DNA of 15,238 nt from Nitrospinae bacterium RIFCSPLOWO2_12_FULL_45_22 (GTDB lineage Bacteria; 2-12-FULL-45-22), in contig MHDQ01000151.1 of NCBI GenBank assembly GCA_001803565.1, forward strand, positions 1 to 15,238, given 5' to 3'. Below, piece after piece: positions 7,163 through 12,855 of this stretch (within the stretch, counting starts at the first letter, position 1; the number at the start of each line of letters is the position of its first letter). Position numbers and translations under genes: made by a program. Under the pieces are notes generated by a model. It was not told the origin of the DNA, did not search any database, and saw only the letters and a program-made list of their open reading frames with translations.

Positions 7163-8218
7163 TTAATAATTACTTAATAACCGGCTGACTGCGTTGGCAG
7201 TATAATCAACTATAGCAATAATGCGGGGATATTCCATCCTTTTAGGCCCGATTATCCCCAGGGTGCCAACCGTCTTATTCCCATATTTATAGGTATGCGT
7301 AACCAGGCTACAATCTTGCATTTCTTCCACCATACTCTCTGACCCGATTAATATCCTTACCCCTTCTTCCTCCATACATTTATCTAAGAGTTTAATAAGG
7401 TTACTTTTTTCTTCGAAGGCGGTAAAGATAGCCTTCATTTTTTCTATATTACTGGCAAACTCCGGTTGGTCGAGGATGTTAACCGTCCCACCCAGATAGA
7501 TTTCTCCCTCTAAACCCGTTTGTTCAGAAAAGGTTCTTTTACTTAATTGGATAGCTTTTTTTAACAGGTTATCATATTCTTCCTTTTCCTTGCGCATCAT
7601 TTTTTCAACCTTATGGCGTATCTCCCGCAAGGTCATACCGGCAAACTCATGGTTCAGATAATGTGATATACTTTCTAGCTTGTCCTGCGAAATATCTTCA
7701 TCTAGCTCGATAATTTTGTTATGTACCAGGCCAGATTCAGTCACAAATATAACCAGAGCCTGATCAGCACGCATACGGATAAATTCTATATGCTTAAATA
7801 CGCTGATGGATAATTTAGGAAGGAATACTAACCCTGCCTGCCTGGAGATAGCAGAGAGCATCCTGGAGGTAGTTTCCATAATTTGTTCAAGCTCGTTGAG
7901 ATTCTCTTTCAGTCTCCGGTCTATCTGATCAGTTTCAGCCTTTGACAGAGGGGGAATATTTACCAGGTTGTCCACATAAATCCGATACGCCCGGTCAGTA
8001 GGCATGCGGCCTGCAGAGGTGTGGGGTTGAGTCAATAAACCCATCTCTTCTAAGTCTGCCATAGTATTCCTTATAGTGGCTGGGCTCAAGCCCAGGGTGT
8101 ACTTCTTAGAAATGGTTCTAGAGCCCACAGGTTCTGCAGTAGCAATATGGCTATCAACTAGAGCCATCAAAATTGCTCTATTCCTTTCACTTAATAGGTA
8201 TTGATCGGCTATAGACAT
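7163..8218 (-). CDS. hrcA: heat-inducible transcription repressor HrcA
   Basis: HrcA represses heat-shock operons (groESL, dnaK) by binding the CIRCE element, and GroEL keeps it active. The 351-aa product has the N-terminal winged helix (about residues 5-75) with the family hallmark VGSRTISKKY, then LSPATIRNTMADLEEMGLL and QPHTSAGRMPTDRAYRIYVD. The GAF-like and dimerisation regions fill the rest, ending in IIGPKRMEYPRIIAIVDYTA. GGGGGAGGGG lies 10 bases upstream of the ATG at 8218. It is normally followed by grpE-dnaK-dnaJ, but here the next gene is an acyl-CoA dehydrogenase. I find no CIRCE repeat (TTAGCACTC-N9-GAGTGCTAA) upstream, so autoregulation through a canonical site is not evident. 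Confidence 0.96.
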   Translation of the reverse strand: MSIADQYLLSERNRAILMALVDSHIATAEPVGSRTISKKYTLGLSPATIRNTMADLEEMGLLTQPHTSAGRMPTDRAYRIYVDNLVNIPPLSKAETDQIDRRLKENLNELEQIMETTSRMLSAISRQAGLVFLPKLSISVFKHIEFIRMRADQALVIFVTESGLVHNKIIELDEDISQDKLESISHYLNHEFAGMTLREIRHKVEKMMRKEKEEYDNLLKKAIQLSKRTFSEQTGLEGEIYLGGTVNILDQPEFASNIEKMKAIFTAFEEKSNLIKLLDKCMEEEGVRILIGSESMVEEMQDCSLVTHTYKYGNKTVGTLGIIGPKRMEYPRIIAIVDYTANAVSRLLSNY

Positions 8219-8318
8219 GATAAGACTACCCCTCCCCCTTTAAATATGCGCAACTTAACCCTCGGGAGATAGTAAAAAATTATATATTTAATGGGTAGAA
8301 TTTTCAACTTCATCTCGC

Positions 8319-8347
8319 TTATTACCAACTTATCGTACCTTTGTCAA
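8319..8347 (-). promoter_or_regulatory. hrcA: Candidate hrcA promoter
   Basis: On the minus strand a perfect TTGACA (8347-8342) is followed after 17 bases by TAATAA (8324-8319), about 100 bases before the hrcA start. The -35 is ideal and the -10 weak. No CIRCE operator overlaps it. Confidence 0.45.
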
Positions 8348-8471
8348 GCAAACTTAATCTGGACATTCCCCAAAAATTTATCCCTGGAAGGGTAAATTAA
8401 CGTATGGGACATGGTTTTAGAAGATAGGAAAGGTGAAATTTTCCGGGGAGACTCCAAACACAAAATTCTTC

Positions 8472-8498
8472 TTGACCTTTGAAGGATATTTATATTAT
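8472..8498 (+). promoter_or_regulatory. Candidate plus-strand promoter upstream of the molybdoenzyme subunits
   Basis: TTGACC (8472-8477) and TATTAT (8493-8498) are separated by 15 bases, shorter than ideal. The 20-bp inverted repeat TTAGGCA-N6-TGCCTAA (8505-8524) falls on the predicted start point, as an operator would. The 237-base leader to the next gene is long. Confidence 0.3.
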
Positions 8499-8504
8499 CC
8501 TGAA

Positions 8505-8524
8505 TTAGGCAAACATATGCCTAA
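8505..8524. promoter_or_regulatory. Operator-like inverted repeat
   Basis: A perfect 7-bp inverted repeat TTAGGCA / TGCCTAA with a 6-base spacer, a size typical of dimeric regulator sites. It lies directly downstream of the candidate -10 at 8493-8498. It is followed by GCTTTT, so a weak terminator hairpin is an alternative. Confidence 0.35.
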
Positions 8525-8529
8525 GCTTT

Positions 8530-8594
8530 TGTAGGGCGGGGCTTTAGTCCGGTAACTGTGGTGATATAACTCAAGCCTAAAGGCTTGCCCGACA
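8530..8594. repeat. Inverted pair of GTAG-like hairpin repeats
   Basis: The unit at 8530-8552 (TGTAGGGC then a CTTTAG core) and the reverse complement of 8572-8594 (TGTCGGGC then the same CTTTAG core) agree at 16 of 23 positions. The right unit forms a clean hairpin, CAAGCC-TAAA-GGCTTG (8572-8587). The left one is weaker. The arrangement, a GTAG-type foot followed by a hairpin, in inverted pairs, is that of REP or REPIN elements. Confidence 0.5.
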
Positions 8595-8705
8595 ATGCTT
8601 TGCAATGAAGATTGCATAATTCGGTATCTTTAGTATCTTTACCCCGTTAGAAAGGAAGTTCGCTCGGTAAAGGCGGGGAGGGGAAAATTAAGGGTGTAGG
8701 GGGTT

Positions 8706-8711
8706 TATAAT
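8706..8711 (+). promoter_or_regulatory. Consensus -10 box ahead of the iron-sulfur subunit gene
   Basis: A perfect TATAAT lies 24 bases before the ATG at 8736 and would give an mRNA leader of about 18 bases containing the GGGGAGG ribosome-binding site (8722-8728). No recognisable -35 lies 16-18 bases upstream; that stretch is G-rich, so an activator may be needed if it is used. Confidence 0.35.
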
Positions 8712-8735
8712 CTTTAGTTTAGGGGAGGCTAGGTT

Positions 8736-9758
8736 ATGGCTTACGAGGTGCTTAAAAAAGCGGACCTTATGAAATCTAAGCGGCAACTAGCAATGGTCAT
8801 TGACCTCAATAAATGCATAGGGTGCCATACCTGTACTATTGGCTGCAAGAGACTCTGGACAGAAGACGAAGGCATGGCCCATATGTATTGGAATGATGTG
8901 GTGACGGTACCTGGTCGGGGCTATCCCCGGGATTGGCAAAAACTTGGGGGCGGTTATAAAGACCAGATGCCCCAGAAAGGTACCCTTCCCACTAAGGCCG
9001 ACTATGGGGAGGCCTGGGAATTTAATTATGAGGAGGTATTTTTTCAAGGCAAAGGTTTGGATACCCATCTCAAGCCCACAGGTACTGCTACGGATTGGGG
9101 CCCCAACTGGGAAGAAGATCAGGGGGCCGGGGAATATCCCAATAGCTATTACTTCTATTTACCGCGTATCTGTAACCACTGCAGCAAACCTGCCTGTGTA
9201 GAGGCCTGCCCCAGGAACGCTCTGTATAAGAGGCCAGAGGATGGCATTGTCCTCCAGGACCAGGAGCGCTGTCAGGGGTACCGTTACTGTAATGAGGCCT
9301 GTCCGTACAAAAAGACCTATTTCAATTTTAAAAAGGCTAAGAGTCAAAAATGTATCTTCTGCTATCCCCGGCTGGAGAAGAAGGTAGCCAATGCCTGTGC
9401 CCGGATGTGCCCCGGCCGGGTCCGGTGGGTAAGCTATAAGGAAGATAAGAGCGGGCCGGTTTATAAATTGACCGAGAAATGGAAAGTGGCTTTACCCTTA
9501 CACCCAGAGTTTGAGACCGAACCTAATGTCTTTTATGTCCCACCCCTATCACCACCTCAATATGGTCCTGATGGTAGTCTGCTGGACGAGCCCAGGATAC
9601 CTATCGAGTATCTCAAGTCGCTCTTTGGGCCGGCAGTAGAAGAGGCATTAAATACTTTGAAGGAAGAGATGGGCAAGAGGAGAAATGGCGGCTCGTCAGA
9701 ACTCCTGGATATCCTTATAGCCAGAAGATTTAATGATATGTTTAAATTGGAGGTCTAA
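8736..9758 (+). CDS. type II DMSO reductase family iron-sulfur (beta) subunit
   Basis: This is the electron-transfer subunit of a complex molybdoenzyme of the ethylbenzene dehydrogenase / dimethylsulfide dehydrogenase / (per)chlorate or selenate reductase / NarH branch. The 340-aa product has four cysteine groups: C27-C30-C33-C37; C146-C149-C154-C158; C179-C185-C189; and C206-C209 with C221-C225. In the third group the usual second cysteine is Tyr182 (CQGYRYC), the substitution that in NarH-type subunits gives a [3Fe-4S] cluster. The prediction is thus three [4Fe-4S] and one [3Fe-4S]. Length agrees with EbdB, SerB and ClrB. GGGGAGG lies 7 bases before the ATG. There is no signal peptide, as normal for this subunit, which is exported bound to a Tat-dependent alpha subunit. 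No alpha gene is adjacent. The reaction cannot be told from beta alone. Confidence 0.92.
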   Translation: MAYEVLKKADLMKSKRQLAMVIDLNKCIGCHTCTIGCKRLWTEDEGMAHMYWNDVVTVPGRGYPRDWQKLGGGYKDQMPQKGTLPTKADYGEAWEFNYEEVFFQGKGLDTHLKPTGTATDWGPNWEEDQGAGEYPNSYYFYLPRICNHCSKPACVEACPRNALYKRPEDGIVLQDQERCQGYRYCNEACPYKKTYFNFKKAKSQKCIFCYPRLEKKVANACARMCPGRVRWVSYKEDKSGPVYKLTEKWKVALPLHPEFETEPNVFYVPPLSPPQYGPDGSLLDEPRIPIEYLKSLFGPAVEEALNTLKEEMGKRRNGGSSELLDILIARRFNDMFKLEV

Positions 9759-9761
9759 GCC

Positions 9762-10445
9762 ATGAAATGCGACAAGGTTAACCATACCAAAGAAGAGATA
9801 TTAGATCCTGGTTCCCCGGTCTGGGACGGGGTCAAGGCAGAAAAGATCGCCCTTGACTCTACCCCTATAAATACCATCCCTACTTCTAAATATATAGTTG
9901 AGACTATCAAACGGGAAAAGATCGGTAAGGTAAAATCCATCGAGGTAAAATCCCTCCATAATGGGAAGGAGATATTCTTCTGGTGTCGCTGGAAAGACGA
10001 TACAGAAAATAGAGAGATTACCGATGTAAATACCTTTGTGGATGGGCTGGGCATGATGTTCCCCATGAAGGGGGATGCCAAGATCGAAGAGATGGGCTCA
10101 AAAAAAGAGCCGGTAAATCTCTGGTACTGGCGGGCAGATTTTGATGATAAGCCGCACAACCTTACTGCCCAAGGTATAGGCTCTACCCAGGCAAGTGAGA
10201 AGAGCTTCTTATTCTCTAAATCCAAATGGGAAAATGGTTACTGGACAGTGATTATGGGCCGACCTCTGACCGTTAAAGCGCAATTGAAAGAAGCGGTTCA
10301 GTTCAAGCCCGGGCAGACCTTCAAGGCCGGCTGGGCAGTGATGGAAGGGAGTAATAATGAGCGGGGTGGGGCCATGTCTTTCTCGGTTTATTTTAGAAAC
10401 CTGGATTTAGTTGACGGTGCCCCGGCCAAGGCCAGGAAAGGCTAA
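9762..10445 (+). CDS. ethylbenzene dehydrogenase-type b-heme (gamma) subunit
   Basis: The 227-aa product belongs to the EB_dh heme-binding family (EbdC, DdhC, SerC, ClrC), which passes electrons between the beta subunit and a periplasmic carrier. Seen: LDPGSPVWDG at the N-terminus, WCRWKDDTEN, then the MGSKKEPVNLWYWRAD block with Met111 at the position of the heme-ligating Met. Near the C-terminus are GYWTVIMGRPLT and the AGWAVMEGSNNERGGAMSFSVYF block. In EbdC the second ligand is a Lys close to this last block; here I see Met205 and no Lys, so the ligand set may differ. The gene starts 3 bases after the beta stop, with GGAGG at 9749-9753. It has no signal peptide, and the in-frame TAA at 9756-9758 rules out a longer N-terminus. 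That is unlike the periplasmic homologues. Confidence 0.88.
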   Translation: MKCDKVNHTKEEILDPGSPVWDGVKAEKIALDSTPINTIPTSKYIVETIKREKIGKVKSIEVKSLHNGKEIFFWCRWKDDTENREITDVNTFVDGLGMMFPMKGDAKIEEMGSKKEPVNLWYWRADFDDKPHNLTAQGIGSTQASEKSFLFSKSKWENGYWTVIMGRPLTVKAQLKEAVQFKPGQTFKAGWAVMEGSNNERGGAMSFSVYFRNLDLVDGAPAKARKG

Positions 10446-10596: not shown

Positions 10597-11889
10597 ATGT
10601 CGGTACAAGTAGTAGTAGGCGCCCAATGGGGTGACGAAGGGAAGGGTAAGATAGTAGACGTATTATCAGAAAAGGCCGACGTGATTGCCCGCTATCAGGG
10701 GGGGCCTAATGCTGGCCATACCGTGGTCTTAGAGCAGGACAAGTTTGTCCTGCATTTGATCCCTTCGGGAATATTACGCCCCGCTAAGGTTTGTATTGTT
10801 GGCCATGGCGTGGTAGTAGACCCAGAAGCCCTCCTGGAAGAGATAGCTGCTTTAGAAAATAAAAATATTAAAGTAAAAGGAAATCTGTTTGCCAGCAAAA
10901 AGGCCCATCTTATTATGCCTTATCACAAGATTATTGACCAGCGCAGTGAACAACTGAGGGGAAATCAGATGATAGGCACCACCGGCCGGGGTATCGGGCC
11001 AGCATATACAGACAAGGTCGCTCGTCTGGGTATTCGGCTGGCCGATCTTTTAGATAGTAACTTGTTTAAAGAAAAGTTGCTGGTAAATCTGCAAGAAAAA
11101 AACTTCCTCTTAAAGAATTTCTATGGCCTCCCCGATCTCTCCTTTGACACAGTATATGCCCAATATATGTCCTATGGTGAAAGATTAAAGGATTATATAA
11201 CCGATACCGATGCCCTTATGAAAGAAGCCCTCGGGCAAGGACGTAGTATCTTGATAGAAGGAGCTCAGGGCACTATGCTGGATGTAGATCATGGCACTTA
11301 TCCTTTTGTGACCTCATCTAGTTCCAGTGTGGGAGGAGTTTGTACTGGCCTGGGGATTGCTCCATCAAGGATTGATGAGGTTATAGGAGTAGCCAAGGCC
11401 TATACTACCCGCGTGGGCAGTGGTCCTTTCCCCACAGAGCTGACGAATGACTCAGGCCAAAAATTACGGGACCGAGGCAATGAATATGGTGCTACTACCG
11501 GTAGGCCCCGGCGCTGTGGCTGGTTTGATGCCGTGGTCGTGCGGCATGCCGTATGGGTTAATGGTATCAAGAAGCTGGCTATTACTAAATTAGATGTACT
11601 GGATCAGTTCGATAAAATCTTTATCTGTACCGGCTATCGCTATAAAGGGGAGATGTTCCGGGATATGCCATGCGAGACAGAGGTGTTAGAAAAGCTCACG
11701 CCGGTATATAAAGAATTGGAGGGTTGGCGGCAAAATACTGCGGGACTCACTTCCTATGAACATTTGCCTTTAAAGGCTAAAAATTATCTAAAGCGCCTTT
11801 CTGACGAGGTAGAAGCAAATATCTCTTTGATCTCTACCGGCCCCCAACGTACCCAAACTATTTTCTTAAAGAATGACGGGATATGCTAG
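10597..11889 (+). CDS. purA: adenylosuccinate synthetase
   Basis: PurA makes adenylosuccinate from IMP, aspartate and GTP, the first committed step from IMP to AMP, in the cytoplasm. The 430-aa product is full length. It shows GAQWGDEGKGK (residues 8-18) with catalytic Asp13, GGPNAGHTVV with catalytic His41, GTTGRGIGPAY, and the EGAQGTMLDVDHGTYPFVTSS block. VGSGPFPTEL and the C-terminal STGPQRTQTI, the guanine and IMP contact region, complete the set. The start is fixed by the conserved N-terminus and by AGAGGT about 7 bases upstream. Its last 7 bases overlap tatA, so it heads a coupled purA-tatA-tatC-pyrF run. Nothing unusual is seen in the protein. Confidence 0.98.
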   Translation: MSVQVVVGAQWGDEGKGKIVDVLSEKADVIARYQGGPNAGHTVVLEQDKFVLHLIPSGILRPAKVCIVGHGVVVDPEALLEEIAALENKNIKVKGNLFASKKAHLIMPYHKIIDQRSEQLRGNQMIGTTGRGIGPAYTDKVARLGIRLADLLDSNLFKEKLLVNLQEKNFLLKNFYGLPDLSFDTVYAQYMSYGERLKDYITDTDALMKEALGQGRSILIEGAQGTMLDVDHGTYPFVTSSSSSVGGVCTGLGIAPSRIDEVIGVAKAYTTRVGSGPFPTELTNDSGQKLRDRGNEYGATTGRPRRCGWFDAVVVRHAVWVNGIKKLAITKLDVLDQFDKIFICTGYRYKGEMFRDMPCETEVLEKLTPVYKELEGWRQNTAGLTSYEHLPLKAKNYLKRLSDEVEANISLISTGPQRTQTIFLKNDGIC

Positions 11890-12116
11890 GCATTGGGATG
11901 CAGGAGTTAATACTAATCCTGGTAATTGCTTTAATAGTCTTCGGGCCTAAACGCTTACCAGAACTGGCCCGCTCCATGGGCCGGGCAGTTGCTGAATTCC
12001 GGAAGGCCTCTGAAGATATAAAAGAAAGTCTGACCTTGAACCTTGAGGAAGAGAAGGAGTGGAAAAAGGACCATACGGTAAAAGAGTTAGCTGAAACCAG
12101 TCATGAAACCCCTTAA
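11883..12116 (+). CDS. tatA: twin-arginine translocase subunit TatA
   Basis: TatA oligomerises to form the pathway by which folded proteins with RR signal peptides cross the inner membrane. The 77-aa product has the typical start MLGIGMQELILILVIALIVFGPKRLPELARSMG: one short membrane helix (about 6-20), the FGPKRLPEL hinge, then an amphipathic helix (about 24-42) and a charged tail. A second ATG at codon 6 exists, but the MxGIGMQE form is common in the family. The gene overlaps the end of purA by 7 bases and tatC by 14 bases, so translation is probably coupled. No separate tatB is present, so this protein may serve both roles, as in minimal TatAC systems. Confidence 0.93.
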   Translation: MLGIGMQELILILVIALIVFGPKRLPELARSMGRAVAEFRKASEDIKESLTLNLEEEKEWKKDHTVKELAETSHETP

Positions 12117-12855
12117 ACAGGATGACAAGATACCATTTACCGAACATCTAGAGGAATTACGCACCCGGCTATTGATAGTCCTGGCCTCAATAGCCGTTGG
12201 TTTCATGACCTGTTACTACTTCTCTGGTTGGTTAGTAGAGTTCATCCGGCGACCATTAGGCCGGGAATTAATATTCATAGCCCCTACCGAGGCCTTTTTT
12301 ATCAACTTAAAGCTCGCCTTTTTTGGTGGATTATTTTTGGCTACCCCTATTATTCTATTCCAGACCTGGCGCTTTGTGGCCCCTGGCTTACTGGAAAAAG
12401 AGAAAAGACTTACCCTGCCCATCGTGGCATCATCGTCCATATTTTTTCTCCTGGGTTCCCTCTTTGCCTATTATATTATCCTGCCTATAGGCACCCAGTT
12501 TTTTTTGAGCTTTGCTACCGAAGGGCTCCAGCCCATGATCTCGGTGGGCAATTACCTCTCTTTCTCAACCAAACTGATCCTGGCCTTCGGCATAGTCTTC
12601 CAGTTGCCAGTAGCCATATTCTTTCTCAGTAAATTAGGAATACTCCGGTCTAAGACCTTAAGACAAAACCGGCGTTATGCTATCTTGATAATATTTATTG
12701 TAGCGGCTATCTTAACCCCCCCAGACGTTATCAGTCAGGTAATGATGGCTATCCCTCTCTTACTCCTTTATGAAGGAGGTATCTGGGTAGCGAAACTGGT
12801 GGAGCGGGGCAGAAGTCAGGCAGAGGGACCTGTAGAGGATGAAAGCACAGGATAG
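12103..12855 (+). CDS. tatC: twin-arginine translocase subunit TatC
   Basis: TatC is the six-helix membrane receptor that recognises twin-arginine signal peptides. The 250-aa product contains the conserved N-terminal FTEHLEELRTRLL (about 12-24, with signal-contacting Glu15), IAPTEAFFINLK (59-70), the RFVAPGLLEKEKR loop (90-102, with the second conserved Glu) and PIGTQFFLSFA. Hydrophobic segments agree with six helices. The ATG at 12103 lies within the end of tatA (14-base overlap), and the last 17 bases overlap pyrF. There is no strong ribosome-binding site, which suggests coupling to tatA. Exported Tat substrates are not encoded nearby; a molybdoenzyme alpha subunit for the genes at 8736-10445 would be an expected client. 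Confidence 0.97.
   Translation: MKPLKQDDKIPFTEHLEELRTRLLIVLASIAVGFMTCYYFSGWLVEFIRRPLGRELIFIAPTEAFFINLKLAFFGGLFLATPIILFQTWRFVAPGLLEKEKRLTLPIVASSSIFFLLGSLFAYYIILPIGTQFFLSFATEGLQPMISVGNYLSFSTKLILAFGIVFQLPVAIFFLSKLGILRSKTLRQNRRYAILIIFIVAAILTPPDVISQVMMAIPLLLLYEGGIWVAKLVERGRSQAEGPVEDESTG

Follow-up and report, generated by a model that had tools for sequence, protein, structure and literature searches.

The window analyzed here is an entire contig (C151; 15,238 bp) of a MAG of 3.67 Mb in 321 contigs, with a completeness of ~85% and contamination of 1.3%. Between hrcA and purA it carries genes for the beta and gamma subunits of a type II DMSO-reductase-family enzyme, and no alpha gene is present at the locus, as the preliminary description had recognized. 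The features are as follows.

7163..8218, - strand: hrcA, divergent neighbor (PF01628, 236 bits)
8219..8735, no strand: non-coding region from hrcA to beta (517 bp)
8736..9758, + strand: beta, predicted four-cluster iron-sulfur protein of the type II DMSO-reductase family (340 aa; TIGR03478, 2ivf_B, 15 Cys)
9762..10445, + strand: gamma, EbdC-like haem b protein without a signal peptide (227 aa; PF09459, 2ivf_C, 19-gamma alignment, model)
10597..11889, + strand: purA-like gene, 151 bp downstream of gamma (identity from reading the translation)
12103..12855, + strand: tatC, translocase component (PF00902, 250.5 bits)

Both reading frames hold at the positions first proposed (8736-10445); they are intact, meet at a 3-bp junction, and are accompanied by a ribosome-binding-like GGAGG. 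An in-frame TAA does precede the gamma ATG by two codons, as reported; it is the stop codon of beta itself (9756-9758), so that a longer gamma start is impossible. The region between hrcA and beta has the size and non-coding character described earlier: its 517 bp contain no run of N, no listed ORF reaching 80 aa, no visible alpha remnant, no Rfam family, and no repeats that we could find. An assembly break between hrcA and beta, which had been raised as a reason to doubt the arrangement, was rejected, since there is neither an N run nor an ORF remnant. Two candidates for control of beta were also rejected, HrcA acting through a CIRCE element (no site matched, with up to three mismatches allowed) and an upstream RNA element (no Rfam match). 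The presence of tatC shows that the genome encodes a component of the Tat pathway. Elsewhere in the window, an Rfam group-II-D1D4-6 match (2043-2208, + strand; 49.4 bits, threshold 49) lies between a DUF2442 gene and a MacB-like transporter gene, and overlapping DUF4160 and DUF2442 genes (1411-1927, + strand) adjoin a D12-class adenine methyltransferase (1-1059).

Assignment to the type II DMSO-reductase family, to which ClrABDC and PcrAB also belong with the same subunit plan, is borne out for both proteins. Beta scores 523.8 bits with TIGR03478 (cut-off, 480.7), its best solved relative is EbdB (2ivf_B, E=8.7e-132), and it is not narH-like (narH profile, 248 of 524 bits). All 15 cysteines are kept, as they are in 16 of 16 aligned betas, a number that agrees with three 4Fe-4S clusters plus one 3Fe-4S cluster, and beta is predicted from these residues to carry four iron-sulfur clusters. 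Gamma matches PF09459 above the cut-off (105.7 bits) and aligns over its full length with EbdC (2ivf_C, E=8.8e-29); its TIGR03477 score of 133 bits is below the cut-off of 169.85, as are those of the EbdC-side gammas of genomes G025, G174, and G312 (122-134 bits). The gamma model, built from a thin alignment (pLDDT 73, pTM 0.78), superimposes on EbdC with Z 24.2 and an rmsd of 2.2 over 197 residues, and on NxrC, which shares the fold and the position of the haem site, with Z 21.6. For beta, gamma, and the two alphas searched, the closest solved structure is EbdABC (2IVF) of Aromatoleum aromaticum, although the EbdA/B/C equivalog cut-offs are missed by beta (449/740), gamma (121.5/400), and the best alpha in the genome (738/2000), and the genes are dispersed here.

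The preliminary description regarded the lack of a signal peptide on gamma as anomalous, with EbdC as the example of a Sec-exported counterpart. The absence itself stands, and the comparison does not: residue 1 of the 214-aa EbdC chain aligns with residue 1 of gamma, so EbdC too is without a signal peptide. By eye in the alignment, the gammas of G025, G174, G312, and contig C330 of G060 have signal-less starts, and signal-like N-terminal stretches occur in ClrC and in the NxrC-like and G173 gammas. Judged from these alignments, a signal-less gamma is characteristic of EbdC-side proteins rather than an anomaly, and the putative Sec signals are those of ClrC- and NxrC-like gammas. ClrC differs from the gamma described here both in this stretch and in its Lys haem ligand.

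The haem site of gamma is unusual. In NxrC the haem is ligated by Met155 and Lys305, as in EbDH (PMC8387239), and counting along the structure-chain alignment places these residues at gamma Met111 and Met205, respectively. In an alignment of 19 gammas, including EbdC, ClrC, and the NxrC-like protein from the same genome, the ligand column holds Lys in 18 of the 18 other sequences and Met only here; the earlier observation of Met205 in place of the expected Lys is therefore confirmed, as it is by the alignment with EbdC. The conserved axial Met is retained as Met111, leaving the Met + Lys pair for haem b incomplete. A conserved Trp eleven residues before the ligand column, present in all 18 others, is likewise replaced only here, by Met194. 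A lone sequencing error was considered as the source of Met205, for which one base suffices (AAG to ATG), but the Trp-to-Met change at position 194 needs at least two; the double change makes such an error less likely, as a single error would not account for both Met205 and Met194. The AlphaFold model has pLDDT <50 for residues 200-208, and the position of Met205 is not placeable within it. Three readings of Met205 remain: the haem may be Met/Met ligated, its binding may be weakened, or codon 205 may contain a one-base error. Met/Met ligation is possible on the residues present, and has precedents in bacterioferritin and Shp (PMC4807273). If Met205 does ligate the haem, this would be the first gamma without Lys among those compared, and it would offer a test of ligand choice against the high haem potential of the hydroxylases, which for EbDH is +256 mV (PMC8840923).

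One suggestion made at the outset was that the catalytic subunit is encoded at a distance, and this now appears likely: a profile search of the genome found four type II alpha loci, all on other contigs. They score 958 (C308), 957 (C273), and 963 bits (C124), with C96 represented by two pieces (731 and 245 bits), so that the loci span 730-963 bits and the best is just below the profile cut-off of 984.75. The C124 alpha is cut at its 5' end by the contig end, and the C96 pieces, which we left unjoined, are parted by a run of N; we rejected the notion that the C96 alpha is frameshifted or dead because the split coincides with this assembly gap. No beta or gamma genes were seen on any of the four contigs, and the beta of the window is the only one above the type II cut-off in this ~85%-complete genome. 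A chaperone and Tat motifs on alpha, for which a search had been suggested, were found in part: a type II chaperone gene precedes the C273 alpha (TIGR03482, 162.6 bits; cut-off, 152.3), and the three alphas whose N-terminus can be read have Tat-type motifs by eye (TRRDFIKG, NRREFLKS, and TRRELIKG), the C124 N-terminus being truncated. With the RR motif on the alphas and no signal seen by eye on beta or gamma, the set has the pattern of a Tat hitchhiker.

The C308, C273, and C124 alphas retain the FS0 His/Cys3 ligands together with the Mo-ligand Asp, and the FS0/Mo-site ligands are visible in the N-terminal piece of C96. Identity to EbdA is ~37-39% for the first three and 35% for C96; among solved structures the C308 and C273 alphas are closest to EbdA, and in a tree the C308, C273, and C124 alphas group with EbdA and the G025 sequences rather than with ClrA. 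Tetranucleotide correlations with the window are high (C308, 0.94; C273, 0.94; C124, 0.92; C96, 0.87), and this similar composition, together with orthologues in a genome of the same order, opposes the idea that the alpha contigs are foreign contaminants. A neighbor of the C308 alpha encodes a FAS1-like dehydratase-domain protein and a neighbor of the C96 alpha a 2-hydroxyacyl-CoA dehydratase D component, genes that hint at catabolic settings. The genome also has a separate NXR/Nar-like complement, which differs from the pair described here in having its own betas and gammas: contig C4 (L028, 3112-12959) carries two successive sets, which together encode two betas, two TorD-like chaperones, a 1161-aa alpha, and two EB_dh gammas, one of them 526 aa long; Rieske- and cytochrome b-like genes come next. 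Contig C144 (L029, 1-2739, - strand) has another NarG/NXR-like alpha, truncated where the contig ends.

An excess of alphas over betas recurs in other genomes. Nine of 386 sampled genomes had a beta match at E<=1e-105, and the alpha:beta counts, which are approximate because some alpha matches are fragments, are 4:1 in G025 (98% complete) and G312, ~5:2 in G060, 5:3 in G153, 4:2 in G291, ~3:1 in G173, 1:1 in G146, and 0:1 in G174, in which the contig stops a short way upstream of gamma, at the position expected for an alpha start. The sole beta-gamma pair of G025 adjoins one alpha, and its other three alphas are elsewhere. The only same-order genome compared, G001 (68% complete), has two alphas, orthologues of those on C308 (73% identity) and C273 (69%), which are situated within contigs (35.7 and 56.0 kb) whose ORFs around alpha include neither a beta nor a gamma; in this incomplete genome neither a type II beta nor purA was found, so that the lack of beta there carries no weight. 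A gamma-like (EB_dh) domain does occur in G001 (C23, 14066-14758; L135, L147) within an open frame of ~694 aa, possibly a membrane-linked version. Clusters of three or four type II alphas with fewer beta and gamma genes in G153 (contig C24, L164) and G291 (contig C47, L165) would be suited to a study of alpha swapping.

We propose, with a probability of roughly 0.78, that the beta-gamma pair is a shared electron-transfer module for several (at least four) Tat-exported type II molybdenum enzymes. First, there are four alpha loci to a single beta, and no alpha contig has a beta or gamma, which supports sharing. Second, the alphas of G001 are solitary within long contigs, and the 4:1 ratio is repeated in G025 and G312. 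The closest published parallel is the S25DH1-4 series of the cholesterol degrader Sterolibacterium denitrificans, in which alpha paralogues outnumber the shared beta-gamma genes (PMC6016249); these are alpha-beta-gamma enzymes with Mo, five Fe-S clusters, haem b, and a Tat signal on alpha (PMC6016249, PMC7411048). The beta-gamma genes are fewer than the alpha genes, from which the authors infer sharing (PMC6016249; gene counts, PMC6153880), and alpha1, alpha2, and alpha3 were each active when produced with beta3-gamma3 (PMC6016249). The comparison is with the published gene arrangement, and we assign no substrate here; the arrangements differ, the beta-gamma genes of S. denitrificans being within S25DH gene clusters, whereas here the sole pair lies between hrcA and purA with the alphas elsewhere.

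The physical pairing of the subunits, how they are exported, what they catalyze, and what accepts the electrons are all inferred. Beta and gamma would be folded and supplied with four Fe-S clusters and haem b in the cytoplasm, and would there join any of the at least four alphas that is expressed, with a type II chaperone inserting the molybdenum cofactor into alpha. Export to the periplasm would then depend on the twin-arginine signal of alpha, with which beta and gamma would hitchhike, much as the PaoABC heterotrimer is exported on one Tat signal (PMC4273604). There, alpha would oxidize its substrate, probably through water-dependent C-H hydroxylation given its kinship with EbdA, and electrons would pass from Mo through FS0 and FS1-FS4 to haem b and on to a periplasmic cytochrome c, the exit proposed for EbDH and S25DH (PMC8840923, PMC6153880).

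Several observations weaken the case for sharing. Another type II beta-gamma pair could be missing from a ~85%-complete MAG in 321 contigs, the C124 contig is cut at the 5' end of its alpha, and G174 shows the reverse situation, with a beta and no alpha found, although its contig ends close to gamma. Met205 and Met194 depart from the standard haem site, and neither the alphas nor gamma reach their NCBIfam cut-offs. The fragmentation of the assembly gives some room for the alternative that the pair serves only one alpha and that the partners of the others lie in the unassembled 15%, and G153 and G291 do have two or three betas per four or five alphas; we nonetheless think this improbable, since the near-complete G025 and G312 have four alphas to one beta and the G001 alphas are alone within long contigs. 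We consider it very improbable that the locus is a decaying remnant that has lost its local alpha and whose gamma no longer binds haem: although both Lys and Trp are replaced by Met at positions where all 18 other gammas keep them, such decay is hard to reconcile with intact ORFs, the 3-bp junction and GGAGG, a full set of beta cysteines, retention of Met111, and a predicted fold matching that of EbdC (Z 24.2).

The preliminary description favored either a cytoplasm-facing enzyme or a pair used on its own, and neither has fared well. EbDH and S25DH are periplasmic, and since the readable alphas have Tat motifs as well, a cytoplasm-facing enzyme is unlikely. Least probable of all is a haem/iron-sulfur pair without any molybdenum subunit, such as a cytoplasmic electron carrier, for although no alpha is present at the locus and neither beta nor gamma has a signal peptide, EbdC is also signal-less, beta retains every Fe-S ligand of the family of betas that dock with alpha, and the genome has four partnerless type II alphas, three with Tat motifs, and no second type II beta that we could find.

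The pair is most likely the part that several enzymes have in common, a principle already known but encountered here in a new context, and the haem ligation is possibly new. The fuller proposition is that at least four Tat-exported molybdenum enzymes of differing substrates, in a lineage far from Sterolibacterium, all pass their electrons out through one beta-gamma pair whose haem b is Met/Met-ligated or has been retuned in another way; it is a tentative one that we regard as doubtful at present. What looked like an orphan would instead reflect a modular design, in which one set of wiring serves many interchangeable catalytic heads, and annotation that expects alpha beside beta-gamma would overlook such enzymes or record them as incomplete. 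Since unrelated genomes also have an excess of alphas, the arrangement reported for Sterolibacterium may well be more general.
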